Assembly (NCBI RefSeq): GCF_021391495.1
Contig: NZ_CP090063.1
Coordinates: 5,456,001 to 5,520,000 of the forward strand
Reading direction: 5' to 3'
Source of the DNA: Amycolatopsis acidiphila
Lineage (GTDB): Bacteria; Actinomycetota; Actinomycetes; Mycobacteriales; Pseudonocardiaceae
DNA: 64,000 bases
Shown: piece by piece, positions 35,529 through 52,808 of the stretch
How the letters are laid out: each line of letters starts with the position of its first letter
How positions within the stretch are numbered: position 1 is the first letter of the stretch
Translations under genes and position numbers: made by a program
The notes under the pieces: model-generated
The model's database searches: none
The model's input: the letters and a program-made list of their open reading frames with translations, nothing else
What the model was told of the DNA's origin: nothing

Positions 35529-36038
35529 CTACCCTGCCGCAGTGTCCACCCGAAGCAGGGCCTGTCGGGACGCCAGAACACTCACGACACCCAGCAGCGC
35601 GCGTCCCGAGGCGGTGGGTACCGGCACGTCGAACGCCTGGAAGAACTCGGCGAAGTGATAGGCGTTGCGAGCCAGCCGTCGCGCGTCGTCGTCGTGCGGC
35701 AGCATCTTGACCAGCTCGTCCTTGAACACCGCCAGACAGCTCGGTTCCATGCCCACCACCGGGATGTCCTCGCGCACGTAGTCACGCAACTGCTCCAGCA
35801 CCCGGTACAGGTAGCGCTCGGCCACAGCGAGAAAACCGTAGTCGTACAGCGGGCGGCCGCAACAGACGTGCACGTCCGGCATGATGACACGCCAGCCCGC
35901 CGCCTCGATCGCCTCGACGTAGGCGACACCCACGTCGGTGTGCAGGTGGTTGTTGAAGGTGTCCGGAAACAGCACGACCCGGCCGCCCGTGTGGGTCGGC
36001 GGTGCCGCCATGGCGGGCGAACCATGCTGACCGGTCAC
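35529..36038 (-). pseudogene. Truncated Fe-S/CCG-domain part of a GlcD/GlcF-type FAD oxidase
   Basis: 169 residues from a GTG at 36038 whose GTGA overlaps the aldolase stop. The segment VVLFPDTFNNHLHTDVGVAY and then VCCGRPLYDYGFL and GMEPSCLAVFKDE are the Cys-rich CCG module found near residue 700 of the roughly 1000-residue FAD-plus-Fe-S D-lactate/glycolate-dehydrogenase-like proteins. Everything before it (the FAD domain and 4Fe-4S ferredoxin motifs) and the second half after it are missing. Either a fragment captured by the aldolase operon or a reduced protein still translated; coupling to the aldolase stop argues that it may be expressed. Confidence 0.7.
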
Positions 36039-36877
36039 TGGCGGGGGTCGAGGACGCCCAGCAGGTGCGTGATCGTTTCCGCCATGGCATCGCGTGCGGG
36101 CCCGAGGTACTTGCGCGGATCGATCGGGGCGTCCGGCTGCGACAGGATTTCGCGTACCGTGCCGGTATAGGCCACGTTCAGCGCCGTCCCGATGTTGATC
36201 TTCACCATGCCGTGGTGGACGGCCGACCGGAGCTGGTCGTGCGGCACACCGGACGATCCGTGTAGTACCAGCGGAACCGGAACACGGTCCCGAAGTCGCA
36301 CCAGCAGATCGAGATCGAGATCGGCGGTCTGCACTGCCATCGCGTGTGAGCTGCCGATGGCGACGGCGAGGCTGTCCACCCCGGTCTCCGCCACGTAGGC
36401 CGCCGCCTCGTCGGGATCGGTTCGGGCGCCCGGTGCGTGCGCTCCGTTCTTTCCGCCGATCTCACCGAGCTCTGCCTCCAGCCACAGCCCGTGATCACGG
36501 GCCCACCGCGCCGCGTCTCGGGTATCGGCGACATTGTCGGCATATGCCTTCTTCGATGCGTCATACATGACGGAGCTGAAGCCGGCATCCGCAGCCTGGT
36601 GTAGTAGCTCCTGGTCCTCGACGTGATCCAGGTGGAGCGACACCGGTACGCGCGCCCTCGTGGCGATCTCGGTGACACCCATGGTGATCGGTCGCAGGAG
36701 TCCGAAGTGGAACTTGACCGCGTTCTCGCTGATCTGGAGGATCACCGGGCGGCCGGCGGATTCCGCTGCCATCACGATCGCCTCGGCATGTTCGAGGGTA
36801 ATGACGTTGAACGCGCCGACTCCGGCGCCGTCGCGGCGCGCTGAGTCGATGATCTCCCGAGTGGTCACCAGTGGCAT
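36035..36877 (-). CDS. Class II (zinc) ketose-bisphosphate aldolase, GatY/KbaY/FbaA-like
   Basis: 280 residues. Zinc and substrate motifs: HLDHVEDQ near 81-88, EAELGEIGG near 135, LHGSSGVP near 207, and MVKINIGTAL near 230. Cleaves a ketose 1,6-bisphosphate into DHAP and an aldehyde; members act on fructose, tagatose or rarer sugars. Abuts the kinase gene upstream with no spacer, so the kinase product is probably its substrate. Confidence 0.92.
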   Translation of the reverse strand: MPLVTTREIIDSARRDGAGVGAFNVITLEHAEAIVMAAESAGRPVILQISENAVKFHFGLLRPITMGVTEIATRARVPVSLHLDHVEDQELLHQAADAGFSSVMYDASKKAYADNVADTRDAARWARDHGLWLEAELGEIGGKNGAHAPGARTDPDEAAAYVAETGVDSLAVAIGSSHAMAVQTADLDLDLLVRLRDRVPVPLVLHGSSGVPHDQLRSAVHHGMVKINIGTALNVAYTGTVREILSQPDAPIDPRKYLGPARDAMAETITHLLGVLDPRQ

Positions 36878-37795
36878 TCAGATCTCCTCGAGTTCAACGG
36901 AGTCGACGAAGCGGTGATAGCTGGCCAGATCGACGTCGCCGGCGAGCGGGCGAAGCACCGCCGAGGCGGACAGGGCCACCATCTCGCGCAGACGCTCTGG
37001 CCAGCTGTTTCCGGTTACCAGACCACGTGCCAGCGCCGCGACTCCCGCGTCACCTGCCCCGGTGGGGTTGCCCGACAGTGCCGTGGGCAGCCGGGCCGCC
37101 CAACGCCCCGCCGCAGTGGAGGCCACGATGCCGCCCACGCCGAGTGAGACGACCACCGCGCCCGCGCCCCGCTCGCGGAGCAGTGCGGCGCCCACCAGCG
37201 GGTCGTCCAGGCCGGTGGCGGCGTACAACTCGTCGGTGTTGGGCTTGACGATGTCGGGTGCGGCCGCCACCCCGTTGACCAGTGCGACACCGTCCGCGTC
37301 CAGCACCACCGGTACCCCGGCCTCGCGGGCGATGGCGACCAGTTGTGCGTACGCGTCGTCCGGCACCGCGACGGGCATGCTTCCGGACAGGACGACCGCT
37401 CGCGCGCCTGTGAGCAAACCGGAGAAACGATCGCGGAATTGGCTCCAGGCCTGGGTTTCGATTCGCGGACCGCCTTCCCAGAAACCGGTCGTCTCGCCGG
37501 TGGCACCGTCCACGATGGCCAGCGTTCGGCGTGACTCGCCGCCCTCCACCGGCAGGAAGTCATGCACGAGGCCGGCGGCGGTGAGTTCGTCGCTGATCCG
37601 CGCGCCCCTGTCGCCGGCGAGCAGCCCGGTCAGCACCACCTCGTGGCCCAGCATGGCCAGTACGCGGCCGACGTTGACGCCCTTACCGCCGGCACGCTCG
37701 GCGACCGAAGCGACCCGGTTCGTCGAGTTCCACCGCACCGTGTCGACCAGGTAGGTGACATCGAGCGCGGCATTCAGCGTGACGCAGAGGATCAT
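36878..37795 (-). CDS. 1-Phosphofructokinase/tagatose-6-phosphate kinase-like sugar kinase (PfkB family)
   Basis: 305 residues. PfkB signatures are AGGKGVNVGRVLAMLG near 35-50 and the catalytic NPTGAGDAGVAAL near 250. The N-terminal ILCVTLNAALDVTYLV is typical of the FruK/LacC subgroup, which phosphorylates ketose 1- or 6-phosphates to bisphosphates. Feeds the adjoining class II aldolase. Downstream of the DeoR gene in the same minus-strand unit. Confidence 0.92.
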   Translation of the reverse strand: MILCVTLNAALDVTYLVDTVRWNSTNRVASVAERAGGKGVNVGRVLAMLGHEVVLTGLLAGDRGARISDELTAAGLVHDFLPVEGGESRRTLAIVDGATGETTGFWEGGPRIETQAWSQFRDRFSGLLTGARAVVLSGSMPVAVPDDAYAQLVAIAREAGVPVVLDADGVALVNGVAAAPDIVKPNTDELYAATGLDDPLVGAALLRERGAGAVVVSLGVGGIVASTAAGRWAARLPTALSGNPTGAGDAGVAALARGLVTGNSWPERLREMVALSASAVLRPLAGDVDLASYHRFVDSVELEEI

Positions 37796-37860
37796 GCCTT
37801 TCCTTCTCGCGCGGCCTACTCTCCGCCGGTGGTGGACCGGCGGCCGGCTGCGCGAATGCT

Positions 37861-38619
37861 CTAGACGACGGTGATCTTGAGTCCGGCCGCGCCCAGACTT
37901 TCCAACTGGGCGGGATCGGCGGTGGAGTCCGTGATCAGTTCGTCGACCGACGACAGTGGGCAGATGGACGCGAAGACGACACGGCCGACCTTGCTGGCAT
38001 CGGCGACCACGATGACGCGACGGCTCCGTTTGATCAGTGCACGGTTGGTCGCGGCCTCGGTCTCGTTCTGGGTGGTCAACCCGGCGTCCCGATCAATCCC
38101 GTCGACGCCGACGAACGCGGTGTCGATGTTGATCTGCCGGAGGGCCGCGTCTGCGAGTGGGCCGACCAGCTCGTACGACGCGCTGCGAGCCACACCGCCG
38201 GTGACGATGAGCTTGAGGTTCGGTCGAACGGCCAGCTCGGAGGCGATGTTGAGCGCGTTGGTGACCACGGAAAGTTCGGCGTGGTTCACCAACTGCCGAC
38301 CGATCTCGGTGGTGGTGGTGCCGCCCGTCAGGGCCACCACCTCACCGTTGGCGACCCGCTCGGCCGCTACCCGCGCGATCCGCTGCTTCTCCGTCTTGGC
38401 GTGTCCCGTGCGGTAGCGGACCGGCAGTTCGAGGGCGGCGCCCTGCGAGATCGCGCCGCCGTGCGATCGCTCGAGCAGGCGTTGCTCGGCAAGAATCTGC
38501 AGATCGCGGCGCACCGTTGCTTCGCTGACCCCGAGCTGATGGGCGAGGTCGGCGACGGCGACGCTCCCGTCCTGGGAAAGGATCTCCAGGATGCGTCCGA
38601 ACCGGTCAGCCTTGCGCAC
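37861..38619 (-). CDS. DeoR-family sugar-phosphate-responsive repressor
   Basis: 252 residues from the GTG at 38619, the usual DeoR length; the frame is open 19 codons further upstream. N-terminal HTH RILEILSQDGSVAVADLAHQ followed by LGVSEATVRRDLQIL; the C-terminal sensor has DeoR landmarks VALTGGTTTTEIGRQL, TGGVARSASYELVG and FVGVDGIDRDAGLT. It probably responds to a sugar phosphate made by the neighbouring kinases. It lies between the two kinase genes. Candidate binding sites are the tandem direct repeats at 39897-40031 in the divergent promoter. Confidence 0.92.
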   Translation of the reverse strand: MRKADRFGRILEILSQDGSVAVADLAHQLGVSEATVRRDLQILAEQRLLERSHGGAISQGAALELPVRYRTGHAKTEKQRIARVAAERVANGEVVALTGGTTTTEIGRQLVNHAELSVVTNALNIASELAVRPNLKLIVTGGVARSASYELVGPLADAALRQINIDTAFVGVDGIDRDAGLTTQNETEAATNRALIKRSRRVIVVADASKVGRVVFASICPLSSVDELITDSTADPAQLESLGAAGLKITVV

Positions 38620-38737
38620 GCCGTGAATCCTAGTTGCCGGGACGGGCGGACCAGTGGCGGAGGGTGATGGCGTCATGGTGCCTCCGAACCGTTCGCGCGA
38701 AGGTCAGTCCTGGTCGCCCCGGCGGCGAATGACCCAC

Positions 38738-39757
38738 TCATGCGGTCACCGCCCCGGCCATCTTCTCCGCTTCGCCGCGGGTGGGTTGGCCCGCGGTGCC
38801 ACCCGCGCTCCGGGTTGACAGGGCGCCGCAGGCACATCCGAGCGCCAGGGAGTGTGCGAGGTCGGCGCCACCGAGCCACCCGAGGAGGAAGCCGGCGTCG
38901 AAGGAGTCACCCGCGCCCGTGGCGTCGACCGTGTGCACCTTCGGCGCGTCGACGTGCACGACGACGCCGTCTCGGACGGCGACAGCACCGTGGGCGCCGA
39001 GCTTCACCGCGACGAGCGGACCGCCAGCAGCCAGTCGCAGGGCCGCTTCGCGTGATTCATCGGGCGTTACCGGGCCCGCCGAGCCGCTGCTCGGCGAGGC
39101 CGAGCCCGGTCCGTCGACCACCCGGGCGAGGCGGACGGATTCCTGGGCATTCGGCAGCAGGAGATCGACGAGGCTGAGCGCCTCGGCTACGGAGGCCCAC
39201 CGGTCCTCCGGGTCCCAACCGGTGTCCAGGGACACGGTGGCACCGGCGGCGTGAGCCCGGTTCACGAGTGCGGCCAAGCCGTCGCCCAACTGTGGCTGGA
39301 GGAACGGCGAAGCGATGTGGACGTGCCGGGTGCGATGCAGCAACGTGTCCGGGACGGCGCACTCGCTCATCGCTCCAAGCGTGCCCAGCGCGGTCAGTAC
39401 CGCGCGGTCATGCGGCCGGGCGAGCGCCACACTGACCGCGGTGGGCAACTCGTCGAGCACGCGGACCGCGCCGGTGCCGACTCCGCGGGCGGCGAGCTGG
39501 TCCAGCGTGAACCGCCCGAAGGTGTCATCGCCGACGCAGGACACGATCGCGGTGCGAAGCCCGAGCCTGGCCGCCCCCGCTGCCGTGATGGAGCCGGAAC
39601 CGCCCAGCACGAGCGCTGCTTCCCCGACGATGCGTTCGCGCTGTCCGAACGCGGGCTCGATCTCGCCGCCGTACAGGATCAGGTCGGGGTTGGCGTCACC
39701 GACGACGAGCAGATCCAGTTCCCGCTCGGTTGTGTCCGAGCTGTTCACTTTCGTCAT
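38738..39757 (-). CDS. PfkB/ribokinase-family carbohydrate kinase
   Basis: 339 residues from the ATG at 39757. Ribokinase-like: VVGDANPDLILYGG at the start, GGSGSITAAGAARLG near 53-67, and the catalytic VDATGAGDSFDAGFLLG near 290. Phosphorylates a sugar, nucleoside or polyol hydroxymethyl group; likely the first kinase of the pathway, with the FruK-like kinase acting second. It heads the minus-strand arm of the divergent locus. Confidence 0.92.
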   Translation of the reverse strand: MTKVNSSDTTERELDLLVVGDANPDLILYGGEIEPAFGQRERIVGEAALVLGGSGSITAAGAARLGLRTAIVSCVGDDTFGRFTLDQLAARGVGTGAVRVLDELPTAVSVALARPHDRAVLTALGTLGAMSECAVPDTLLHRTRHVHIASPFLQPQLGDGLAALVNRAHAAGATVSLDTGWDPEDRWASVAEALSLVDLLLPNAQESVRLARVVDGPGSASPSSGSAGPVTPDESREAALRLAAGGPLVAVKLGAHGAVAVRDGVVVHVDAPKVHTVDATGAGDSFDAGFLLGWLGGADLAHSLALGCACGALSTRSAGGTAGQPTRGEAEKMAGAVTA

Positions 39758-39896
39758 CCGCGCACGCTCTCGGATGCTCGGTTGTGGAGCCTCTCGTCGA
39801 CCGGTGTGATCCCGCAACGAGGCCTTACCTTGCCGTAGAGCACGGTCATCAGGGCGAAATCAGGCACGGTCGGGAGTATGTCAGCGCGACGGAGAC

Positions 39897-39913
39897 TGCG
39901 CAACTATGCGCAC
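39897..39913. promoter_or_regulatory. Direct repeat TGCGCAnnnnTGCGCA, candidate DeoR site 1
   Basis: TGCGCA at 39897 and again at 39907, a spacing of one helical turn. It lies 140 bases upstream of the ribokinase-type gene start. The same core recurs at 40011 and 40022. Confidence 0.5.
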
Positions 39914-40009
39914 TATGCCGTTCATATAGTCATCTTCGTGCAGTCGAGCAGGACCGCTGTCGATCTTCCTTCGCGTGAGAGGAAATTCTGGCTGGTGAGG
40001 GATCTGTAC

Positions 40010-40031
40010 TTGCGCGAAAGTTGCGCAATAG
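40010..40031. promoter_or_regulatory. Tandem 11-bp repeat TTGCGCRAWAG x2, candidate DeoR site 2
   Basis: TTGCGCGAAAG (40010-40020) followed at once by TTGCGCAATAG (40021-40031), 9 of 11 identical, 41 bases upstream of the SIS gene start. DeoR-family repressors typically bind direct repeats with 10-11 bp period. With site 1, both arms of the divergent locus would be controlled. The 315-base region 39758-40071 holds no gene. Confidence 0.55.
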
Positions 40032-40071
40032 ATGCTTGACTACGTTCAGTTGGCGCTCATATGGTGCACGA

Positions 40072-40968
40072 GTGAGCATCACGGCAGATGAGATAGCAAC
40101 ACAGCCCGAGTTGTGGCGCCGAGCGATCGAACAGGCTGGCGAGGTCGCCGACCTGCTGCCGGCGCGCGGCAAGGAGGTGTGCGTCGTCGGTTGTGGCACT
40201 TCCCTCTACATGGCGCAGGCGTGGGCGCGGCTTCGTGAGCAAGCGGGACATGGCCGAACGGACGCCTATCCGGCGTCCGAGTTGCCGGCCGGGCGCCGGT
40301 ACGACGTCCTGGTCGCGATCTCCCGATCCGGCACGACCTCCGAGGTCACCCGCGTCCTGGAGCGGCGACCCGCCGACCGCTCCGTCGCGATCACGGCGGT
40401 TGCCGACGGGCCGGTCGGTGCGGCGGCGAACGAGGTCATCGCGTTGCCGTACGCGGACGAGCGATCCGTCGTCCAGACCAGGTTCGCGACGACCGCGTTG
40501 ACCCTGTTGCGCGCTCATGCCGGAGACGGTGGCAACGCGGTGGCCGATGCGGAACGAGCACTCACCATGGATTTGCCGATCGACCCGGCCCAGGTCACCC
40601 AGTGGACCTTCGTCGGTCGCGGTTGGACGGTGGGTCTGGCGCACGAGGCCGCGCTGAAGTTGCGGGAAGCGGCCCAGGCGTGGACCGAGGCCTACCCGGC
40701 GCTGGAGTACCGGCACGGACCGATCAGTGTGTCGGGACCGGGCGGTGTGGTGTGGTCGTTCGGCCCGACCGACCCGGCATTGGCCGAGGAAATGAGGGCC
40801 ACCGGCGCGACTGTGGTGGATCTTCGGCAGGATCCGCTGAGCTCTCTCGTCGTCGCGCAGCGCACCGCGGTCGCGTTGGCGCGGGCCAAGGGGCTGGACC
40901 CGGACCTTCCGCGCCACCTCTCGCGGTCGGTGGTACTCGCCGGCCAGGCATTGAACACGCTGTCCTGA
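40072..40968 (+). CDS. SIS-domain sugar isomerase/deaminase (AgaS/GlmS-isomerase-like)
   Basis: 298 residues from the GTG at 40072. Two SIS domains: CVVGCGTSLYMAQAWARLRE near 40 with the phosphosugar loop ISRSGTTSEVTRVL near 85, and a second domain with KLREAAQAWTEAYPALEYRH near 200, the GlmS/AgaS signature. Acts on amino-sugar phosphates as an isomerase or deaminase. First gene of the plus-strand arm. A frameshifted second copy lies at 52981-53470. Confidence 0.9.
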   Translation: MSITADEIATQPELWRRAIEQAGEVADLLPARGKEVCVVGCGTSLYMAQAWARLREQAGHGRTDAYPASELPAGRRYDVLVAISRSGTTSEVTRVLERRPADRSVAITAVADGPVGAAANEVIALPYADERSVVQTRFATTALTLLRAHAGDGGNAVADAERALTMDLPIDPAQVTQWTFVGRGWTVGLAHEAALKLREAAQAWTEAYPALEYRHGPISVSGPGGVVWSFGPTDPALAEEMRATGATVVDLRQDPLSSLVVAQRTAVALARAKGLDPDLPRHLSRSVVLAGQALNTLS

Positions 40969-41052
40969 CCGGGCGCACCGCGTCGAAACGGAGCGTCGCG
41001 ACAGGGCGAGGCCCAATCCTCGGAAGTCGAGTCAACTGACAGGAGGCGCTCG

Positions 41053-42351
41053 GTGTTTCTCGATCTGACCGCACGCCGCAACTCGCCGCTGATCCGCGCC
41101 GCAGCCCAGCTGCACCAGTCGGGCGTCATTCCGGCGAACACGTATGTGATCGATCTGGACACGGTTAGGGACAACGCGGCCGCGATGGCGGCCGAAGCGC
41201 GTCGGGTCGGCATCAGGACGTACCTGATGACCAAGCACTACAACCGCAACCCGCTGGTCACGCACGCCGCGCTGGCGGCCGGTCTCGACTCGACGGTCGC
41301 TGTCGACGTCCAATGTGCACAGGCGTTGCGGCGGTTCGGCCTCCCGCTCGGTCACGTCGGGCATCTCGTCCAGATACCCAGGCACGACCTGCCGGCGGTG
41401 TTGGCGCAACGGCCCGAGGTGATGACCGTTTTCTCGGTCGACAACGCTCGGCTCGTCTCGGCCGCCGCGCAGCCCCTGGGGGTTGTCCAGGACATCTTGA
41501 TCCGGGTGCGCGGGCGCGACGACATCATCTATCCCAACGAGGAAGGCGGTGTCTGGGAGGCAGACCTGGCGGCCGCCGCCACGGACATCGCGGCGCTGCC
41601 GGGTGTCAGGATCGCCGGCGTGGTCACGTTCCCGGGTACCTTGTTCAACCCGACGAGCCGGAAGATCGAGCCGACCACCAATTTCGCCACCGTACTACGC
41701 GCCAAGGACCTGCTGACCTCGCTCGGATTCGAGATCGAGCAGGTCAACACACCCGGCGCCGGGTCCACCCAGGGATTCGAGGTGGTGGCCCGCAACGGTG
41801 GCACCGTGGCCGAGCCGGGACATGGCCTGACCGGCACCACGCCGACGCATCTGTACGACGATACCGCGCCGGAAAGGCCAGCGATCACCTACGTCAGCGA
41901 GGTGTCCCACGTCTTCGACGGCCGTGCCTACGTGGTCGGCGGTGGCTTCTACGCCTGCGACACGCCGGCGCTGATCGGCGACGACCGGGCGTTCCACACC
42001 GAGGCCTGGCGGTGCATGGCCTTCGTCGGCAGGGAACCCGATCGCATTCTGGACACCAAGGTGCCCGTCGACATCGGGTCCTTCTTCGGCCGTACGAACA
42101 ACGCGACCGACTACTACGGTGGGACTCTGGTGCCGGACACGCCCGCGGACATCCGGCCGGGCGACTCCGCCGTCTACGGATTCCGTCCCCAGGTGTTCAC
42201 CACACGCGCGCACGTCGCCGTGGTCGACGGGTTGTCGACCGAGGCGAGACTCCTGGGCCTGTTCGATCGGGCCAACAATCTGATCGACCGCGACGGTCTG
42301 CCGATGGACAACTCGACGAGCCGCGTGCGCGAAATGATCGGCACCACTTAG
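41053..42351 (+). CDS. YhfX-like PLP enzyme (alanine racemase N-terminal fold)
   Basis: 432 residues. Fold-type III PLP barrel: YVIDLDTVRDNAAAM followed by the PLP-lysine motif TYLMTKHYNRNP with Lys61, then a C-terminal beta domain. It resembles YhfX of Enterobacteria and D-amino-acid deaminase/racemase relatives; the true reaction of this group is not established. The GTG start lies after an AGGAGG site. A homologue of similar length (50008-51273) lies on the other side of the amidohydrolase genes. Confidence 0.85.
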   Translation: MFLDLTARRNSPLIRAAAQLHQSGVIPANTYVIDLDTVRDNAAAMAAEARRVGIRTYLMTKHYNRNPLVTHAALAAGLDSTVAVDVQCAQALRRFGLPLGHVGHLVQIPRHDLPAVLAQRPEVMTVFSVDNARLVSAAAQPLGVVQDILIRVRGRDDIIYPNEEGGVWEADLAAAATDIAALPGVRIAGVVTFPGTLFNPTSRKIEPTTNFATVLRAKDLLTSLGFEIEQVNTPGAGSTQGFEVVARNGGTVAEPGHGLTGTTPTHLYDDTAPERPAITYVSEVSHVFDGRAYVVGGGFYACDTPALIGDDRAFHTEAWRCMAFVGREPDRILDTKVPVDIGSFFGRTNNATDYYGGTLVPDTPADIRPGDSAVYGFRPQVFTTRAHVAVVDGLSTEARLLGLFDRANNLIDRDGLPMDNSTSRVREMIGTT

Positions 42352-42469
42352 CCACGGCACCGGGCGCCGCACGTTGTGCATCTGATGACCGGTCCGCGTT
42401 TCGCGGCCGACGACAGCCGTAACGGCATCCGCCGCCATGAACATGACCACGAGAGGGTGTGCGGCACGA

Positions 42470-43813
42470 ATGGTAGCTGACGATCAGAACCGCCGGCGGA
42501 TCACCCGCCGTGGTTTTGTCAGGGCGACGACGGTCGCCGGAGCGGGTGGCCTCGTACTCGGCGGCATCGGGGGTGCGCTCGGCGGCCACGCGTCGGCCGG
42601 CGGGCAGACCATTTCCGGCGGTCCCGCACGCGGCCAGGAACTCCGGGTCGTGCTCGCGGCGCCGATGACGGGCGATGCGGCCTCATGGGGCCGGGAGTCG
42701 AAGAACGGCGCGTTGATGGCGATCGACGAGATCAACGCCAACGGCGGCGTACTCGGTGGCACGCTGAAGTACGTCGAGGTCGATCTCGGCGACTGGAACG
42801 ACCCGGCCAATGTGCGGCAGGTCTTCAGCCGGATCGTCGACACCGAGAGCCCGGACGTGATCGTGTGCCCCGCGGTCAACGCCATGGGCCCCGACCTCGA
42901 CGTCGTGGCGGACGCAGGAGTCCTCTATTTCCACGCGTCGACACGCGAGGACTGGCGCACGATCTACCACAAGAACCCACAGCGGTACTGGGGCGTCTTC
43001 CAGTGCGATCCGGCCGAAACCGCCTACGGCACCGGCGTGGGCCAGTTCTTCGATCAACTGGTCAACAGCGGCGAATTCCGGCCACCCAACGGGAAGACCG
43101 TCGCCATCGCGGCCGGATACGACCCGACCGGGTCCCAGATCGCCAAGACGTTCCAGGCCAAGATCAAGGAGCTGGGCTGGGAGGTCGTGTCCTTCGACAC
43201 CGTCCAGAGCGGTCAGATCACCGATTGGGGGCCCGTCCTGTCGAAGGTTCGGCAGAACTCGCCAAGTGTCTTCTTCACCTCTGACTACTTCCCGCCCGAC
43301 AACGCGGCATTGGCCAAGCAATGGGCTGCGGCGCCAATCCCGGCACTGGTCTACCAGCACTACGCGCCCTCGGATCCGGACTACGCGAAGCTCGCCGGAT
43401 CGGCCGGCAACGGAATCATCTGGTCCTCGGTGCTGGCGTTGCTCGTCGACCCGATCGGCAACGACTTCCGGGACCGCTACCGCAAGCGGTATCACACCGC
43501 GGCCGGTTGGTCCTACGCCGGTGGCGTCTACGACCAGGTCAAGCTGTGGGCGCACTGCGCGGCCCTGTCGGGCGACCCCAAGGACTACCGTCGGGTCGCC
43601 AGGACCGTCGAGCAGACCCCCGTTCGGGGCGTGACCGGCTGCCTGTACCTGGACAAGCACATCAACGCCGCCTACCCCGTCGAGCAGCCCGATCCGACGC
43701 TCGCCCAACCGCAGATCATCGCGCAGGTCCGGGACGGTGGCCACACCGTCTTCTACCCCGAGCCCTATACGAACGGGAAGTTCCAGCTTCCTCCGTGGAT
43801 GCCGAAGGGCTGA
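42470..43813 (+). CDS. ABC transporter substrate-binding protein, branched-chain amino acid/amide type
   Basis: 447 residues from the ATG at 42470 (ATG 42437 also possible). Tat-type signal RRRITRRGFVRATT followed by a hydrophobic GLVLGGIGGAL. Mature part follows the LivJ/UrtA pattern: VVLAAPMTGDAASWGRESKN, the hinge ANGGVLGGTLKYV. Binds the imported substrate outside the membrane. The Tat route is unusual for this family and implies folding or cofactor loading before export. It heads the importer genes. Confidence 0.9.
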   Translation: MVADDQNRRRITRRGFVRATTVAGAGGLVLGGIGGALGGHASAGGQTISGGPARGQELRVVLAAPMTGDAASWGRESKNGALMAIDEINANGGVLGGTLKYVEVDLGDWNDPANVRQVFSRIVDTESPDVIVCPAVNAMGPDLDVVADAGVLYFHASTREDWRTIYHKNPQRYWGVFQCDPAETAYGTGVGQFFDQLVNSGEFRPPNGKTVAIAAGYDPTGSQIAKTFQAKIKELGWEVVSFDTVQSGQITDWGPVLSKVRQNSPSVFFTSDYFPPDNAALAKQWAAAPIPALVYQHYAPSDPDYAKLAGSAGNGIIWSSVLALLVDPIGNDFRDRYRKRYHTAAGWSYAGGVYDQVKLWAHCAALSGDPKDYRRVARTVEQTPVRGVTGCLYLDKHINAAYPVEQPDPTLAQPQIIAQVRDGGHTVFYPEPYTNGKFQLPPWMPKG

Positions 43814-43816
43814 GCG

Positions 43817-44623: not shown

Positions 44624-45308
44624 CGTCGACGCCAGCTACGGCGCCGCCCGGATCCTTCACTCGGTGTCGATATCCGTCGCAGCTGGGGAGAGCGTCGTCA
44701 TCCTCGGTCCGAACGGGCACGGCAAGACCACGCTGCTGCGGGTCATCTCCGGGCTGGTGCGGCCGTCTGCCGGACGGGTCGAGTTCGACGGGCGTGAGCT
44801 CACCGGGCTACGGCCGGAGGAGGTGGTAGCCGCCGGAATCGTGCAGATCCCGCAGGGCGACCTGGTTTTCCCGCTTATGACCGTGAAAGAGAACCTGTTG
44901 ATGGGTGCGTACCGGACCAGCGCCTGGCGACAACGCAAGGACAATCTCGAACGGGTCTACGCGATCTTCCCGCGCCTGCGGGAACGGGAGCGGCAACTGG
45001 CACGCAGCCTGTCCGGCGGTGAGCGCCGGATGCTCGCCATCGGGCGCGGACTGATGAGCGACGTTCGCCTGCTGATCGTCGACGAACCCTCGCTGGGACT
45101 GGCGCCGCAGGTGATCGAAGACGTGTACAACGCGATCAGACGCATTACCGAGGACGGCCTCTCGCTGTTGCTCGTCGACGAGAGTGCCAACCACATCGAC
45201 GGACTCGCCGACCGGGTCTATCTGATGCAGACCGGGGAAATCGGTTACGAAGGGAATGCCGCCGAGCTGCTACGCGACGACGCCCTGTTGTCGACCTATC
45301 TCGGGTGA
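44607..45308 (+). CDS. ABC importer ATPase, LivF-like
   Basis: 233 residues from the ATG at 44607 (GGGAGG site). Walker A GPNGHGKTT, signature LSGGERRMLAIGR, Walker B LLIVDEPSLGL, and a modified H-loop-region element VDESANHIDG where EQN is usual. Forms the ATPase pair with the LivG-like protein. The start lies inside the LivG gene, so translation is coupled. Confidence 0.92.
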   Translation: MLTVSDVDASYGAARILHSVSISVAAGESVVILGPNGHGKTTLLRVISGLVRPSAGRVEFDGRELTGLRPEEVVAAGIVQIPQGDLVFPLMTVKENLLMGAYRTSAWRQRKDNLERVYAIFPRLRERERQLARSLSGGERRMLAIGRGLMSDVRLLIVDEPSLGLAPQVIEDVYNAIRRITEDGLSLLLVDESANHIDGLADRVYLMQTGEIGYEGNAAELLRDDALLSTYLG

Positions 45309-45320
45309 ACGGGGAAAGAA

Positions 45321-46199
45321 GTGGAACAACTCGTACAGGCCATCTGGGGTGGGCTCGTCTTCGGATCGGTCTACGGTCTGATGGCCGTGGGCCTCACGCT
45401 GGTCTGGGGCTCGCTGAACCTGCTCAACCTGGCGCACGGCGCGATCTACGTCGTCGGCGGCTATGTCGGCTACACCTTCATGGTCGGACTGGGCGTCAAC
45501 TGGATTCTCGCCTTCGGAGCCGCGATCGTGGTGTCCGGCCTGCTCGGCGTCCTGCTGCACCTGGTCGTTGTGGTTCCCATGCTGGGCAAACCGGGATGGG
45601 ACAACGCTTCGTGGATCGCCACCGTCGCGGTGGGAACCTTGCTCGGTGCCGTCGTACTGCTCGTCTACGGGCCGGGCATACAGGCGATGCCGGCGGCCAT
45701 CCGCGGCAACTTCGTGCTCGGCCACATCGTCTTTCAGTATCAGGAGATTCTGGTCTGCGGGGTCGCGGTGGTGTTGCTCATCCTGCTGAACGGCTTCCTG
45801 AGGAAATCCCGGCACGGCCTGGCCATCCGGGCCGTCTCCCAGCAGCGGGATGCCGCCCAGCTGATGGGCATCCCGGTCGCGATGGTGTTCCTCACCGTCA
45901 TGGGCGTCAGCGCGGCGCTCGCCGGACTGGCCGGGGCGATGCTCTCCTCGGTGCTGGTGCTGAACCCGACCGCAGGTTTCGTCCCGATGCTCAAGGCGTT
46001 GATCGTGACCATCTTCGGTGGGCTCGGCAGTGTCAAGGGAACGATTGTCGCGGCCTACATCATCGGCCTCGTGGAGGCGTTCGTGCAGACATTCCTCGGC
46101 GCGACCTGGTCGCTGCCGGTGCTGTTCCTCGTCATTATCGTCGTGTTGCTCGTCCGGCCACAGGGCCTGTACGGGACCCCGGAGTTGCAACGGCTATGA
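45321..46199 (+). CDS. ABC importer permease, LivH-like
   Basis: 292 residues with about eight hydrophobic helices. The family motifs are GLVFGSVYGLMAVGLTLVWG at the N-terminus and the EAA-like loop KSRHGLAIRAVSQQRDAAQL near 165. Imports a branched-chain amino acid, urea, short amide or aromatic substrate. Overlaps LivM by 4 bases (ATGA). Confidence 0.92.
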   Translation: MEQLVQAIWGGLVFGSVYGLMAVGLTLVWGSLNLLNLAHGAIYVVGGYVGYTFMVGLGVNWILAFGAAIVVSGLLGVLLHLVVVVPMLGKPGWDNASWIATVAVGTLLGAVVLLVYGPGIQAMPAAIRGNFVLGHIVFQYQEILVCGVAVVLLILLNGFLRKSRHGLAIRAVSQQRDAAQLMGIPVAMVFLTVMGVSAALAGLAGAMLSSVLVLNPTAGFVPMLKALIVTIFGGLGSVKGTIVAAYIIGLVEAFVQTFLGATWSLPVLFLVIIVVLLVRPQGLYGTPELQRL

Positions 46200-47236
46200 G
46201 TGTCTCCAAACAGATCGCGCGGCCTGTTCGGGTCGCGCCGGGTGCCGGCCCCTGGCGCCGGTTCAACGGCGGTCCGGCCATCCTCGGCCTGGTGCTCGCC
46301 GCCGGCGTGCCGTGGCTGCTGATGGCGACCGGCCAGCGCTATGTCGTGACACTGCTGGTGACCGTTCTGGTCTACGGAATGGTCGCGCAGAGCTGGAACC
46401 TGGTGCTCGGGGTGTCCGGCATCTTCTCGCTCGGCCAGCTGGTGTTCTATGCGACCGGCGGATACGTCAGCAGCCTGGTCACCATCCACACCGGACTGAG
46501 CCCGTTCCTGGCCATCTGGCTGGGTGGGCTGGCGGCCGCGCTCGTCGGCCTGGTGGTCGGCGTACCGATCCTGCGGCTGCGCGGCATCTACATCGCGCTG
46601 CTCACGCTCGGCTTCGTCATGCTGCTGCAGAACTACCTCGGTACCGGCCCGAGCTTCTTCGGCGGCTTCTACGGCCTCCAGCCGCCGGGGTTCTCATCCG
46701 GCGGCGCCGGCAGCGTGCTGGTTATCTGCTACATCGGTCTGGCGCTGTTCGCCATCACGATGTTCGCGGTGTGGCGAATCATGCATTCCCCCGTCGGGGT
46801 CGCCTTCCTCGCGCTGCGCGACTCCGAGGTGTACGCGATCAGCCGTGGCATCGACCCGTTCCGGTTCAAGCTGCTGCTGTTCGCCTACAGTGCATTCTTC
46901 GCGGGGCTGGCCGGCGCGTTCATGGCTCACTACCAGCAGTCCGTGACGCCCTCGACGCTGGATTTCACACTGTTGACCAACCTGATCATGATGATCGTGA
47001 TCGGCGGCTGGGGCACGTTCTGGGGCCCCATCGTCGGTGCGGCCATCCTGGTCTTCCTGGACAGCTACGTGCTACGCAACCTCGCCGCCGGCTGGCACGA
47101 ACTGGTCCTCGGCGCGTTGCTGGTGGTGGTCGTCGTCGTCGCACCGGCCGGAGTCGTGCCGACGGTCGCTCGCTGGGTCAACCGTCTCGGAGCCCGCGTG
47201 CTGCCCGAATTCGACGAGGAGGAGGAGTTGGTATGA
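46196..47236 (+). CDS. ABC importer permease, LivM-like
   Basis: 346 residues. Long N-terminus before the first helix, then LivM motifs SWNLVLGVSGIFSLGQLVFY and the ATPase-contact loop SPVGVAFLALRDSEVYAISR. The C-terminus is acidic (EFDEEEELV). Overlaps the small amidohydrolase subunit gene by 4 bases, so import and hydrolysis are translationally linked. Confidence 0.92.
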   Translation: MSVSKQIARPVRVAPGAGPWRRFNGGPAILGLVLAAGVPWLLMATGQRYVVTLLVTVLVYGMVAQSWNLVLGVSGIFSLGQLVFYATGGYVSSLVTIHTGLSPFLAIWLGGLAAALVGLVVGVPILRLRGIYIALLTLGFVMLLQNYLGTGPSFFGGFYGLQPPGFSSGGAGSVLVICYIGLALFAITMFAVWRIMHSPVGVAFLALRDSEVYAISRGIDPFRFKLLLFAYSAFFAGLAGAFMAHYQQSVTPSTLDFTLLTNLIMMIVIGGWGTFWGPIVGAAILVFLDSYVLRNLAAGWHELVLGALLVVVVVVAPAGVVPTVARWVNRLGARVLPEFDEEEELV

Positions 47237-47628
47237 CGAACGACGCTCTGTCCAAGGTCGCGGACGCTGAGCGAGATGTCGACCGGTACATCTTCGAACA
47301 TCGGGTACGGCCCACGATCACCGTGGACACGATCGCCGAGCACAGGTCGAATCCGTTCGGTGCGGGACACAGCCCCGAACTGGAGGTCCTGCTGCGGTAC
47401 CTGCGGCGTAACCCGGTCCGCTCGCGGCCGCGCTACATGCTGGTCGAAACGAAGCCGTATCAGGAGTGGTGCATCGCGCTGCACTCACGGCAGCGAGGTG
47501 AGCCGCTCGTCCTGACCGGTGAGCGGTTCGGATCGCAGGCTGAGGCTCAGCACGAGATCTTCCTCAAGCGCCTGCTCGACCTCGGCGACCCCGTCATCAC
47601 CCGCATCGTGGAAACCGCACGGGACTGA
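47233..47628 (+). CDS. N,N-dimethylformamidase-like small (alpha) subunit
   Basis: 131 residues, the length of the DMFase small subunit (about 132). Charged, helical N-terminus and the segment RRNPVRSRPRYMLVETKP, which fits that family; it has no catalytic motif of its own. In known DMFase it binds the large subunit in an alpha2-beta2 complex. The pairing with the gene directly downstream (14 bases) makes the assignment firm as a subunit, though the natural substrate may differ. Confidence 0.85.
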   Translation: MTNDALSKVADAERDVDRYIFEHRVRPTITVDTIAEHRSNPFGAGHSPELEVLLRYLRRNPVRSRPRYMLVETKPYQEWCIALHSRQRGEPLVLTGERFGSQAEAQHEIFLKRLLDLGDPVITRIVETARD

Positions 47629-47642
47629 AGGAGCAAGCGAGC

Positions 47643-49943
47643 ATGCCAGACACCATGGTGAGTGGCCCGATGCGGATACTCGGCTACTGCGACCGGCCGA
47701 ACGTCCGACCGGGTGAGACGCTGAACTTCTACGTCAGCTGCGCCGAGGAACTGTCGACGTACGAGGCGGACATCGTCCGGCTGGTACACGGAGACCTCGA
47801 CCTGCGTGGCCCCGGTTTCAAGGAAGAGGTGATCGAGACGGGGGTGACCGGCCAGTACCCGGCCCGAACCCAGGCCAGCTACCCCGGTTCCCACGCGATC
47901 ATCCCGGACCGGCCGGAACTCGTGCCCGGTGCCGCCGGCTTCACCATCCAGGCGTTCGTGTGGCCCACCACCCCGGGCAACGGCCGGCAGGGCATCGTGA
48001 CCAAGTGGTCGGCAGCGGACCAGGCCGGCTATGGACTGTTCATCGACGACCGCGGTCATCTCGAGCTCGTGCTCGGAGACGGTAACGGCGGGACCGTCGC
48101 GGTGAGCACGGACCAGCCGCTGGTGGAACGGTGCTGGTATCTGGTATCGGGTTCGTACGACGCGCGGGCCGGAATTGTGCGGCTGAGGCAGGAAGCCGTG
48201 GTGGGGATGGCGAACGCGCCGGTGTCCCGCGCAGCCACGTTCGCCGGGCAGAGCCTGAGCGTCGAACAGTCGGTGGGCATCACCCCCGCAACCACCGGCG
48301 TACCCCTGGTGATGGCGGGATGGACCGACCACCTGGAGGGCGAGCAGGCGATCGTCGCGGGCCACTACAACGGCAAGCTCGACCGCCCCCGGCTGGCCGC
48401 TCGTCCGCTCAGCCGCGAGGAGGTGTGGGCGTGGGTCGCCGAGCCCGCCGGGCCGGACCTGGTGGGTGCCTGGGATTTCTCCGACCAGATCACACCGAAC
48501 GGCATCGTGGCCTTCACCACGATCACCGACAGCTCCCCCCACGGTTTGCACGGGCAGACTGTGAACGCGCCCGTCCGGGCGGTCACCGGATACAACTGGA
48601 CCGGCGAGCAGCATGTCTACACGCACGCACCCGACCAGTACGGCGCCATCCAGTTTCACGACGACTCCGTGGACGACCTGCGGTGGGACGTCGACTTCCA
48701 GCTGACAGTACCGGACGGGCTGCGCAGCGGCGTCTATGGCGCCCGGCTTCGCTCCGGCGAGCACGAGGACTACGTGCCGTTCTACGTGCTCCCGCCCCGG
48801 GGAGTGGCCACCGCGCGGATCGCGTTCCTCGCGCCCACCAACAGCTACCTCGCCTACGCCAATGATCACATGGGCGTGGACGCCGAGCTCATCCAGCTGG
48901 CGATCGGCCGGACCGCGGTGCTCGCGGCGCAGGACATCCATCGCCATATCCACCGAGAGCTCGGCAACTCGCTCTACGACCTGCACACGGACGGAAGCGG
49001 CGTGTGCTACTCGTCCTGGCGGCGTCCGCTGTTGACGGTCCGGCCGAAATACCGCCATTCCTTCGGTAACGTCTGGCAGTTCAATGCTGACCTGCATCTG
49101 GTGGACTGGTTCACCGAGAAGGGCTTCGAGGTCGACATCATCACCGACCGCGATCTGCACGACGAGGGTGTCGAGCTGTTGAAGCGCTACCGGGCGGTGG
49201 TGACCGGCTCGCACCCGGAGTACACCACCGGTCCCATGCTCGACGCCATCGAGGCGTACCTACAGGACGGTGGCCGTTTCATGTACATGGGCGGCAACGG
49301 GTTCTACTGGGTGACCAACTATCACCCGGAAAACCCGCACCTGATCGAGATCCGTCGTCACGGCGGTACGCAGATGTGGACCGCGGCCCCTGGCGAGCAC
49401 TACCTCAGCTTCACCGGCGAGATGGGTGGCCTGTGGCGCAACCGGGGCCGAGCGCCGCAGAAGATCGTCGGCGTCGGTTTCATCGCGCAGGGCCTGGACA
49501 TCTCCAGCTACTACCGTCGCAAGCCTGACAGCTTCGCCGAAGGTGCGTCCTGGATCTTCGAGGGCATCGGCGACGACGAGCTGATCGGCAACTTCGGACT
49601 GTGCGGCGACGGCGCTGCCGGGCTCGAACTCGACTGGTACGAGCCCAGCCTCGGATCACCGGCGCACGCGTACCTGCTCGCCTCTTCTGAGGGCCACACG
49701 AACGTCATGCTCGAAGTACGGGAGAACTTCGGCACCACGATGCCGGCGCACGGTGGCGACGAGCAGCCCAATGTCCGAGCGGACCTGGTCTACTTCATGA
49801 CCCCGAACGACGGCGCGGTCTTCTCCACCGGTTCGATCGCCTGGTGCGGGAGCCTGTCGCACAACGGCTACGACAACAACGTCTCTCGCATCACGGAGAA
49901 CGTGCTGCGGCAGTTCGCCTCGGATGATCCGCTCCCCCGATAG
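47643..49943 (+). CDS. N,N-dimethylformamidase-like large (beta) subunit, iron amidohydrolase
   Basis: 766 residues (known large subunit 762). N-terminal beta-sandwich, then a LamG-like module at about 100-250 (TIQAFVWPTTPGNGRQGIVT), then the catalytic half. His524 and Glu526 (GSHPEYTT) and Tyr445 (NSLYDLH) have the spacing of the Tyr440-His519-Glu521 mononuclear iron site reported for Paracoccus DMFase, as I recall it. It should hydrolyse a tertiary or secondary formamide, or another small amide, into acid and amine. Embedded in a sugar-kinase/aldolase locus, so a sugar-linked or formylated amine substrate is plausible. Confidence 0.88.
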   Translation: MPDTMVSGPMRILGYCDRPNVRPGETLNFYVSCAEELSTYEADIVRLVHGDLDLRGPGFKEEVIETGVTGQYPARTQASYPGSHAIIPDRPELVPGAAGFTIQAFVWPTTPGNGRQGIVTKWSAADQAGYGLFIDDRGHLELVLGDGNGGTVAVSTDQPLVERCWYLVSGSYDARAGIVRLRQEAVVGMANAPVSRAATFAGQSLSVEQSVGITPATTGVPLVMAGWTDHLEGEQAIVAGHYNGKLDRPRLAARPLSREEVWAWVAEPAGPDLVGAWDFSDQITPNGIVAFTTITDSSPHGLHGQTVNAPVRAVTGYNWTGEQHVYTHAPDQYGAIQFHDDSVDDLRWDVDFQLTVPDGLRSGVYGARLRSGEHEDYVPFYVLPPRGVATARIAFLAPTNSYLAYANDHMGVDAELIQLAIGRTAVLAAQDIHRHIHRELGNSLYDLHTDGSGVCYSSWRRPLLTVRPKYRHSFGNVWQFNADLHLVDWFTEKGFEVDIITDRDLHDEGVELLKRYRAVVTGSHPEYTTGPMLDAIEAYLQDGGRFMYMGGNGFYWVTNYHPENPHLIEIRRHGGTQMWTAAPGEHYLSFTGEMGGLWRNRGRAPQKIVGVGFIAQGLDISSYYRRKPDSFAEGASWIFEGIGDDELIGNFGLCGDGAAGLELDWYEPSLGSPAHAYLLASSEGHTNVMLEVRENFGTTMPAHGGDEQPNVRADLVYFMTPNDGAVFSTGSIAWCGSLSHNGYDNNVSRITENVLRQFASDDPLPR

Positions 49944-50007
49944 GTGCGCTCCACACCGTGTCGAGGTGTCCGGTCGGTCGGCGCCCACAACCACAGAAAG
50001 GTCAGAC

Positions 50008-51273
50008 ATGTTTCTCCGCCATCTCGCCGACCGGAATCCGGATCTGGCGTCCGTCGCGTTCGACCTGCATCGGTCCGGAGCCATCCCGCCCAACACCTGG
50101 GTCATCGACCTCGACACGGTCGCGGACAACGCGCGGGTGCTGGGCGAGCGAGCTCGGGAACTCGGACTGTCCACCTACCTGATGACCAAGCAGTTCGGCC
50201 GCAACCCCTACGTGACGGCGGTGGGCCTGGCCCGCGGGCTGGACAGCACGGTCTGCGTGGACATCACCTGTGCTTTGCAGTTGACCCGGTACGGCCTGCC
50301 GATCGGTCATCTCGGCCATCTCAACCAGGTGCCGCGTGTGTTCGTGGACCGGGCCGTCAGCTGGCGTCCACAGGTCATCACCGTCTTCAACGCCGAGCAC
50401 GCGGAGTGGATCAGTGCTGCGGCCGCCCGGCAGGGTGTCACCCAGGACCTGCTGCTGAAGGTCTACAGCGATGGGGACGTCTTCTTCCAGGGCCAGGAGG
50501 GTGGCACGGCCGAGTCCGAGGTACCGGCGGTGGCGAAGCGGATCGCGGCGTTGTCGAATGTCCGGGTCGTCGGCGTCACCGCGTTTCCCTGCGTCCGTTA
50601 CGACCCCGAAGGCACCGGCGCGCCCGAACTGACGCCGAACTTCGACACGGTGGTCCGCTGCGCGAAGGAACTCACCGCGCTCGGCTTCGAGATCAACCAG
50701 GTCAACACACCGGGGAACACCTCGTCGGCCACCATGAAGCTGCTGGCCGACCACGGCGCCACGCACGTCGAGCCCGGCCACGGGCTCACCGGTACGACTC
50801 CCAGTCATGCCGCCGACGCCACACTTCCGGAGCGCCCGGCGTTCGTCTACGTCAGCGAGATCTCCCACCACTTCCGGAACTACGCGTACGCGTTCGGCGG
50901 CGGGTTGTTCCAGGACATCTACCCAGCAGGCTATACGGCGAAAGCGTTGGTCGGGCCGACCTGGGAAGCCGCACGGAACAACACGCTGTCGTACCGGCAC
51001 GACATTCCGCAGATCATCGACTACCACGCCGTGCTCGAGCCCGGCGACCGGTGCGCGGTCGGCGACACCGCGCTGTTCGGCTTCCGCACGCAGATGCAGA
51101 TGACCCGGTCGTACGTGGCACCGGTGAGTGGTATCCGCACCGGCGAGCCGCGGCTGCGCTTCCTGTTCGACAACGCGGCCACCGCGTTGGATCCGGACAC
51201 TGTCCAGCCGGTCGCCGCGGAGCGGGTAGTCGCCGATCTGCGCGTCGTACGCGACCTGTACGGGAACAGCTGA
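50008..51273 (+). CDS. Second YhfX-like PLP enzyme
   Basis: 421 residues from the ATG at 50008. Same fold-type III barrel as the copy at 41053, with TYLMTKQFGRNP and Lys61 in the same position; the two N-termini align closely (NTxVIDLDTVxDN). Either a heteromer partner or an enzyme for a second amino intermediate. It follows the amidohydrolase genes and ends at the permease start. Confidence 0.85.
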   Translation: MFLRHLADRNPDLASVAFDLHRSGAIPPNTWVIDLDTVADNARVLGERARELGLSTYLMTKQFGRNPYVTAVGLARGLDSTVCVDITCALQLTRYGLPIGHLGHLNQVPRVFVDRAVSWRPQVITVFNAEHAEWISAAAARQGVTQDLLLKVYSDGDVFFQGQEGGTAESEVPAVAKRIAALSNVRVVGVTAFPCVRYDPEGTGAPELTPNFDTVVRCAKELTALGFEINQVNTPGNTSSATMKLLADHGATHVEPGHGLTGTTPSHAADATLPERPAFVYVSEISHHFRNYAYAFGGGLFQDIYPAGYTAKALVGPTWEAARNNTLSYRHDIPQIIDYHAVLEPGDRCAVGDTALFGFRTQMQMTRSYVAPVSGIRTGEPRLRFLFDNAATALDPDTVQPVAAERVVADLRVVRDLYGNS

Positions 51274-52808
51274 TGGAGTCGGGTAGAAGGATACGACGCG
51301 CGAAGGGTACGGCCGTGAGTCGCGAAACCCGTTCGGCCACGCCGGTCGAGGGCGAGCTCCCGCAGGGCCGGCTACGTGGCGGCGCGATCGGAGCACTGGG
51401 CGCCGCGGTGGTCTCGATGGCGTTCATGGGCCCGGCCACCAGCGTGGCGTTCAACACCGCGCCCGGCGCGGCGAAGACCGGGTTCGCGCTGCCCGTGGGG
51501 ATTGTGCTCGCCTTGTTGGTCTGCCTCATCACGGCCTCGACGGTCAGCGCGTTCTCCGGCAAACTTCCCTCAGCCGGGTTCGCGTTCACGTTCAACAGCC
51601 ATGCCTACGGCAAGGGAACCGGTTTCGTCTCCGGCTGGCTGCTGGCGCTCGCGTACGGCGCGGTCGGCCCGATGCTGTTCTCAGCCATGGGCAGCTTCGG
51701 CAGCCAGTTCCTGTCCGACCAGTTCCACTGGCGTGTGCCGTGGTGGGTCATCAGCGCCCTCGTGCTGCTGATCATCTGGTTCGTCGGCTCACGCGGCATC
51801 ACCAGTTCGGTCAAGACCGCGCTGATCTTTCTCGTGCTCGAGCTGGGCGTCTTGCTCGCGTTGTTCGGAACCGTCATCGGCCGAGGGGGTGACAGTGGCA
51901 ACAGCCTGGGGCCGTTCGACCCTGCCAACTCGCTGACCGGTACCAGCGGCATCGGCTTCGGCATGCTGTGGGGCGTCCTGATGTTCGTCGGCTTCGAATC
52001 GGCCGGCACACTCGGCGAGGAAACACGCAACCCGCGGCGCAATGTGCCGAGGGCGCTGTTCACTGCGGTGATCACGGTCGGCGTGCTGTACGTCCTGTCC
52101 GGTTACGTGGCGGCGATCGGGTTCGGTGCCGGCCACGCCGACGCCCTCGCCGCCGACACCAGCCCGTGGAGCACGCTGTCCGATCGCTACTGGGGGCGAG
52201 GAGTGGCCTGGCTGTTCACCCTGACGGTACTGAACAGCCAGTTCGCGAACGCGCTGTCCGGCTCGACGGGCGCGGTGCGCATCATCTTCTCGCTGGGCCG
52301 GGAAGGGCTGCTCAGCCGGCGGCTGGGCAGGACGAACGATCGAGACAGCCCGGTGCGCGCCTGGATGACCTACATCGGGCTGTCCGCCGTCGTCACCTTC
52401 GTGGTCGGCTGGCTGATCGGCCCGTTGGGCACCTACAACCTGCTGGGCAGCCTGCTCGGACTCGGCATCGTGGTGCTCTACATCCTGATGAACATTGGCG
52501 TCATCCGGTACTTCTGGCGGCACCACCGCGCCGAGTTCTCCGTCCTGCGGCACGGAGTGCTACCGGCCGCCGGGAGCGTACTCATGCTGCTGCCGATCTA
52601 CGGTCTACTGTGGCCGGTTCCGTCGTGGCCCTACAACCTGGTGCCCTACATCCTGCTGGTGTGGGTGCTGATCGGCATCGGCTATTTCGTCCACGTTCGT
52701 CGCCACAAGCCGGCCGTCGTGGAGGCGATGGGCCGGGTCTGGGAAGCCGACTCCACGCCCCCACCCTCAGAGGCGACCGGTGCTGACCAGGGCCTGTCCT
52801 GCGATTGA
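51273..52808 (+). CDS. APC-superfamily amino acid/amine permease, C-terminus altered by an IS end
   Basis: 511 residues, about 12 hydrophobic helices, starting within the stop of the YhfX-like gene. The N-terminal helix GALGAAVVSMAFMGPATSVAF and the loop GFESAGTLGEETRNPRRNVP are typical of APC permeases; it takes up amino acids or amines by proton or cation coupling. The last residues (QGLSCD and the stop) are encoded by an IS5-like terminal sequence beginning at 52789, so the native tail has been cut off, though all helices seem intact. Confidence 0.9.
   Translation: MESGRRIRRAKGTAVSRETRSATPVEGELPQGRLRGGAIGALGAAVVSMAFMGPATSVAFNTAPGAAKTGFALPVGIVLALLVCLITASTVSAFSGKLPSAGFAFTFNSHAYGKGTGFVSGWLLALAYGAVGPMLFSAMGSFGSQFLSDQFHWRVPWWVISALVLLIIWFVGSRGITSSVKTALIFLVLELGVLLALFGTVIGRGGDSGNSLGPFDPANSLTGTSGIGFGMLWGVLMFVGFESAGTLGEETRNPRRNVPRALFTAVITVGVLYVLSGYVAAIGFGAGHADALAADTSPWSTLSDRYWGRGVAWLFTLTVLNSQFANALSGSTGAVRIIFSLGREGLLSRRLGRTNDRDSPVRAWMTYIGLSAVVTFVVGWLIGPLGTYNLLGSLLGLGIVVLYILMNIGVIRYFWRHHRAEFSVLRHGVLPAAGSVLMLLPIYGLLWPVPSWPYNLVPYILLVWVLIGIGYFVHVRRHKPAVVEAMGRVWEADSTPPPSEATGADQGLSCD

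Follow-up and report, generated by a model that had tools for sequence, protein, structure and literature searches.

Two divergent arms of 15 genes

The DNA analysed here, the window, is a stretch of 64,000 nucleotides from Amycolatopsis acidiphila (assembly GCF_021391495.1; positions 5,456,001 to 5,520,000 of the 8.18-Mb contig NZ_CP090063.1). At 36035-52808 it carries 15 genes, arranged as two divergent arms, that bring sugar-phosphate enzymes together with a dimethylformamidase (DMFase)-type amidase, and which we favour, with some reserve, as a catabolic set for an amino sugar in amide linkage (N-acyl) or a closely related 2-amino-polyol. Families were assigned by Pfam and NCBIfam profile scans, plus matches to solved structures in PDB, which confirmed those named in an earlier, sequence-only reading; gene content and family membership are thus established.

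The minus arm starts with PFKB, a PfkB/ribokinase-like kinase (38738-39817; PF00294, E 1.4e-45), whose start is either 39817 (TTG) or 39757 (ATG) and which reaches no equivalog cut-off. It is followed by DEOR, a DeoR-family regulator of 271 amino acids (37861-38676; PF00455, E 3.8e-52, and PF08220) that scores 205 bits with the AgaR model (cut-off 260), and by FRUK, a FruK/LacC-type kinase of 305 amino acids (36878-37795) with a tagatose-6-phosphate kinase as its best solved relative (E 2.8e-42). The arm ends in ALDO, a class II ketose-bisphosphate aldolase of 280 amino acids (36035-36877; PF01116, E 5.8e-85). As ketose-phosphate kinase and class II aldolase, respectively, FRUK exceeds TIGR03168 (249 bits, cut-off 216.4) and ALDO exceeds TIGR00167 (226 bits, cut-off 215.6), with the AgaZ family itself outside this test; FRUK falls below the FruK and LacC equivalog cut-offs.

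The plus arm opens with SIS, an aminosugar-phosphate isomerase/deaminase-like protein of 298 amino acids (about 40072-40968; PF01380), and YHFX1, a YhfX-like pyridoxal phosphate (PLP) enzyme of fold type III and 432 amino acids (41053-42351). A Liv-type importer follows, comprising the substrate-binding protein SBP (42437-43813; PF13458, E 2.2e-36), the ATPases LIVG (43817-44623; PF00005, PF12399) and LIVF (44577-45308; PF00005; ATG start possible at 44607), and the permeases LIVH (45321-46199; PF02653, E 5e-33) and LIVM (46196-47236; PF02653, E 7.2e-37). The arm continues with DMFA1 and DMFA2, the small and large amidase subunits (131 and 766 amino acids; 47233-47628 and 47643-49943), YHFX2, a second YhfX-like enzyme (50008-51273; 45% to YHFX1), and APC, an amino-acid/polyamine-type permease (51273-52808; PF13520, E 1.5e-35).

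Several genes had been described as abutting or overlapping by 1-17 bases, which holds for YHFX2/APC (1 base), LIVH/LIVM and LIVM/DMFA1 (4 each), LIVG/LIVF (17, with the ATG start) and the abutting aldolase and FruK-like kinase genes. YHFX2 is unlikely to start at 49924, as judged by alignment: the part aligned with YHFX1 starts at MFL, window 50008, leaving a gap of ~64 bases after DMFA2 instead of an overlap.

Conservation of the set and its sugar-phosphate half

A scan for DMFA2 in a GTDB-based genome collection yielded 18 loci, and only one, L025, contained the cluster. This locus, from the metagenome-assembled genome Actinomycetota bacterium BP_184 (G545), has at 63-80% identity the FruK-like, DeoR and PfkB genes on one arm and SIS, YhfX1, SBP, LivG, LivF, LivH, LivM, DMFA1 and DMFA2 on the other; the same contig continues past the FruK-like gene with an aldolase gene (73-74%), so that 13 of the 15 genes are syntenic. 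Given this established order, the 15-gene set is, at the level of sequence, a conserved unit beyond chance, and the earlier view that amide hydrolase, YhfX and sugar genes form one locus stands. On a separate G545 contig, an APC permease (66-67%) adjoins a YhfX gene (45-46%), together with a SIS gene and a ROK gene, and an APC permease (55%), a YhfX (44%) and a SIS gene also lie close together in Embleya. Metagenome contigs of 18531, 221421 and 51017 bases occur with equal sizes among the listed YhfX1 and DMFA2 matches, the 18531-base size recurring among the listed SIS matches as well, which lends the unit indirect support. Downstream of DMFA2, L025 (12337-20464) contains a TetR-like gene, a second Liv-type importer and then amidohydrolase- and nitrilase-like genes, according to their translations; matches to window queries there were limited to LivM, LivG and LivF.

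The sugar-phosphate genes are widespread on their own. Of 150 family genomes, 71 contained SIS relatives at E <= 1e-50, as did 29 of 396 phylum genomes (the window's genome counted in both). We read 40 SIS loci wide, mostly the best-scoring, and at >=100 bits found DeoR in at least 33, an aldolase in at least 27, a FruK-like kinase in at least 20 and PfkB in at least 3, counts that are lower bounds since several loci end at contig ends. A ROK-family gene (>=43% identity) was found in 14 of the 40, including the query's own locus, L148, the assignment being verified by Pfam in four (L142, L147, L148 and L154). YhfX and DMFA, at >=55 bits, appeared in none of these 40 loci, several of them cut at contig ends. 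The lower half (DeoR, SIS, LacC/FruK-like kinase and class II aldolase) is, from its family assignments, a standard actinobacterial module resembling the Aga route, and the window PfkB may stand in for the ROK kinase of the common module.

The nearest families are aminosugar-phosphate isomerases/deaminases for SIS, ketose-phosphate kinases and ketose-bisphosphate aldolases, which fits the earlier proposal that the sugar genes phosphorylate, deaminate or isomerise, phosphorylate again and split. Two narrower identities for SIS were set aside. The label 'AgaS-like' was sound as to the SIS family and loose as to AgaS, with 26 bits from the NCBIfam model, whose cut-off is 529, while by fold glucosamine-6-phosphate deaminases rank closest. 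The JGI label FrlB was set aside in view of the same fold ranking, no FrlB model being among those listed.

It is unlikely that the window simply contains two unrelated neighbouring modules, the common sugar-phosphate module and one in which Liv and DMFase genes serve a simple amide, with no substrate in common. The sugar module does stand alone in all 40 SIS loci read, and distant relatives at 35-42% (L029, L038 and L188) have Liv genes beside DMFA2 but no sugar-module genes there, the arrangement that the sequence-only reading had named as telling against its own proposal; the closest readable relative, L025 (80%), does have the sugar genes. However, SIS and YHFX1 lie ahead of the Liv and DMFA genes on the same strand, small overlaps run from LIVG to DMFA1, and the mixed gene order is retained in G545, arguing for a single set.

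We consider quite unlikely a second alternative, a route for sugar-amino-acid conjugates (Amadori or Heyns type, as in the frl and fra deglycase pathways), in which PFKB would phosphorylate the conjugate, SIS would be the deglycase, the amidase would trim an amide side chain, and YhfX and APC would handle the released amino acid. An asparaginase, itself an amidase, is part of the fra pathway. SIS relatives are named FrlB-like by JGI, the window has an APC permease and enzymes resembling amino-acid racemases, and the available text of PMC12755824 describes a kinase and a SIS deglycase in the fra pathway. The window shares a PfkB-type kinase and a SIS enzyme with frl/fra, but its SIS fold appears nearer to the glucosamine-6-phosphate deaminases, and it has an extra kinase and an aldolase.

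The amidase, its importer and the YhfX enzymes

DMFA2 (PF20254, E 1.6e-96) is similar over its full length to the Paracoccus dimethylformamidase (6lvb_A, E 8.7e-216) and less similar to N-acetyl-(R)-beta-phenylalanine acylase (8huy, E 8.5e-130). The gene of the small subunit (6lvb_B, E 1.7e-7; 69% orthologue in L025) adjoins that of the large one, as for a DMFase-type iron amidohydrolase. The iron ligands (Tyr-Tyr-Glu) and an essential His of DMFase are identified in the available text of PMC7686228, and their counterparts Y399, Y440, E521 and H519 align with Y405, Y445, E526 and H524 of DMFA2, retained in 23 of 23 aligned sequences; the iron site is intact. The same text ascribes the small-amide preference of the Paracoccus enzyme to Phe693 of the neighbouring subunit. 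In an ungapped stretch, Thr698 of DMFA2 aligns with Phe693, the loop around it is the same in L025, and DMFA2 lacks the Phe693-type pocket constriction that marks a dimethylformamidase in the strict sense. This changed pocket residue extends to the window's own clade (12 sequences at >=68% identity), with Thr in 10 and Met and Ile in one each, whereas 11 other relatives, hand-chosen from a match list, had Phe in eight and Gly, Cys and Ser in one each. Because Phe693 is replaced in the whole clade, the alignment suggests that the substrate of DMFA1/DMFA2 is different from dimethylformamide (DMF) and probably larger.

That the locus simply supplies nitrogen or carbon from DMF, methylformamide or some other small amide is very improbable: DMFase is matched in both subunits and in the iron-site residues, but the Phe held to cause small-amide preference is replaced, a family member in PDB is named an N-acetyl-(R)-beta-phenylalanine acylase, and a second dmfA1-dmfA2 locus of P. 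aminophilus has no reported link to DMF use (PMC4543880). As to the amide of the amino sugar that we favour, the formyl group suggested earlier is one candidate acyl group.

Relatives of DMFA2 occur in 17 of 150 family genomes, the window included, the others at <=58% identity over the matched part. Six of 82 plasmid records with DMFA2 were fetched, outside the control set used below; neighbours were amine oxidase genes in Rhodococcus and Halalkalicoccus, an AmiS/UreI-type gene in Rhodococcus and Paracoccus, a sugar-type importer in Agrobacterium vitis, a Liv importer in Agrobacterium sp. 13-2099-1-2 and an aromatic-catabolism region in Mycobacterium. On the plasmid of strain 13-2099-1-2 (L188, 7278-8936), an annotated Liv permease of 552 amino acids has a DMFA1-like C-terminal end (34% over 90 residues, E 1.2e-9). 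A search with this tail returned 32 plasmid records, and the matched stretch was annotated as the permease itself in 24, mostly near-identical Agrobacterium plasmids, with one protein read. From this fusion on Agrobacterium/Rhizobium plasmids and the 4-base overlap between LIVM and DMFA1 in the window, importer and amidase probably act as a pair. The locus also suggests that the unusual iron site of DMFase (two Tyr, one Glu) has its place in the breakdown of natural amides, where importer and amidase would work together.

Both YHFX1 and YHFX2 score above the cut-offs of PF01168 (Ala_racemase_N) and PF21279 (YhfX-like C-terminal domain); YHFX1 matches E. coli YhfX (4kbx, E 7.7e-74), and the PLP lysine, K61, is invariant in 43 of 43 YhfX sequences. 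The nearest characterised relatives are D-threonine-aldolase-type enzymes and alanine racemases, and the deaminase role once proposed for YhfX found no support in them. Sequence alignment of D-threonine aldolase with YhfX, for comparison of metal ligands, reaches no further than the barrel domain.

YhfX is rarer than SIS: at E <= 1e-15 it occurs in 5 of the 396 genomes of the phylum, that of the window among them, and at E <= 1e-60 in 6 of 249 genomes of the order of G545, G545 among them. SIS deaminase-like genes were near YhfX in 8 of the 16 other loci read as compared with 1 of 22 DMFA2 control loci, with some neighbourhood queries drawn from the YhfX loci themselves, favouring matches there, and several loci closely related. 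The YhfX set excludes L054 (YhfX cut by the contig end), and the controls exclude L025, which holds YhfX, and L035, L040 and L041, which are short or cut. Outside the cluster, no DMFA2 match was seen in any YhfX locus read wide.

A third YhfX of the window's genome, at about 2.83 Mb (L050, 3417-13771), is accompanied by genes for an ABC importer, a ROK protein, a BadF-type kinase-like protein, an amidohydrolase and a SIS protein. A recurrent setting, in four alphaproteobacterial plasmids and one actinobacterial genome (L052, L063, L064, L065 and L066; 6 of 19 plasmid records with YhfX were fetched), combines a ROK regulator, an M20 hydrolase, a ribose-type ABC importer and YhfX.

Among the papers listed, neither one on YhfX function nor one on a sugar pathway with dimethylformamidase was found by title and start of abstract, most subscription journals being outside the search. 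YhfX has a solved structure and an E. coli gene, and the locus gives this orphan enzyme a first testable role; locus and comparison set tie it to SIS deaminase-like genes and hydrolases, directing the search for its substrate to 2-amino sugars.

Proposed route and comparison with known systems

Taking the enzyme classes from sequence, we infer the substrate, the order of steps, the YhfX reaction and the regulation as follows. The Liv importer, perhaps also APC, would bring in the N-acyl amino sugar and pass it to the DMFase-type iron amidohydrolase DMFA1/DMFA2, which would cut the amide bond. YhfX would then use its PLP to act on the amine so released; its most likely reaction is epimerisation at the carbon that bears the amine, which would ready the compound for the next enzymes. 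PFKB would phosphorylate the sugar at position 6, SIS would deaminate and isomerise the product to a ketose phosphate, FRUK would add a second phosphate, and ALDO would split the bisphosphate into two C3 units entering central metabolism. DEOR would repress the gene set until an inducer is present.

A wider proposal, which we put forward tentatively and regard as somewhat unlikely, is that YhfX belongs to amino-sugar catabolism, as a PLP enzyme acting on the 2-amino-3-hydroxy unit of the open-chain sugar, that the DMFase family is a broad class of importer-coupled amidases and not a solvent-degrading oddity, and that the window unites both for an N-acyl amino sugar. The 2-amino-3-hydroxy unit is proposed because it resembles the beta-hydroxy amino acids of the nearest characterised fold relatives of YhfX.

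Several points weigh against an N-acyl amino sugar route. None of the window's proteins has an established substrate, and SIS, PFKB and FRUK all fall below every NCBIfam equivalog cut-off. The common module of the 40 SIS loci lacks YhfX and DMFA, and the lower half needs neither. The whole gene order is readable in one other genome only, and there, in L025, YHFX2 and APC do not come after DMFA2. Among the matches listed, YhfX1 relatives above 50% identity outnumber DMFA2 relatives above 60%, and therefore YhfX1 may often occur without DMFA2. The neighbourhood comparison around YhfX is itself tilted towards matches by its queries.

As regards regulation, a promoter-like match lies 5' of SIS at 40036-40065, one of 2 found against 1.2 expected. 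A shared DeoR operator is not claimed: words common to at least three of eight intergenic gaps of the window and L025 numbered 8 at length 7 (6.1 in simple letter shuffles) and 2 at length 8 (0.6), with none at length 9. Downstream of APC, the minus strand carries at 52999-53325 a fragment that resembles the C-terminal portion of SIS (53% to the window SIS and 61% to the L148 SIS over 109 residues) and is apparently left over from a second SIS module; six open reading frames (ORFs) scanned between 52.8 and 55.3 kb gave no Pfam match. In the left flank (10 ORFs scanned, 495-28321), MlaE, FAA-hydrolase, glyoxalase-family, AMP-ligase, acyl-CoA dehydrogenase and TetR genes showed no link to the locus.

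Among known systems, the Paracoccus DmfA1/DmfA2 enzyme (6lvb), as far as the available text of PMC7686228 describes it, shares with the window the two subunits, the iron ligands and the essential His; the window differs in the Thr replacing the pocket Phe693 and in its setting within a sugar locus with a DeoR regulator. With the yhf locus (E. coli YhfX; Cetobacterium plasmid locus L068) it shares the YhfX family and the PLP lysine, but the YhfS, YhfT, phosphotriesterase-like and phosphopentomutase genes of L068 are not among the window's 15. The common actinobacterial SIS-DeoR-FruK-aldolase module has the same four gene families, although a ROK-family protein is frequent there and YhfX and DMFA are absent from the 40 loci read.

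The Aga route for galactosamine and N-acetylgalactosamine resembles the lower half most directly. According to the available text of PMC4694137, AgaS deaminates and isomerises galactosamine-6-phosphate to tagatose-6-phosphate, AgaZ phosphorylates it, AgaY splits the product, and the DeoR-type AgaR represses. The window likewise has a SIS enzyme, a kinase of the ketose-6-phosphate type, a class II aldolase and a DeoR regulator. In contrast, its SIS is below the AgaS model cut-off, neither an AgaA deacetylase nor phosphotransferase system (PTS) genes were found among the 15 (Pfam scans, with DMFA1 by PDB search), and a PfkB kinase, Liv importer, DMFase-type amidase and YhfX are present instead. 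The claim of an undescribed pathway was thus too broad for this half; what is new is the joining of a DMFase-family amidase without the size-limiting Phe, YhfX and a Liv importer to an Aga-like lower pathway.

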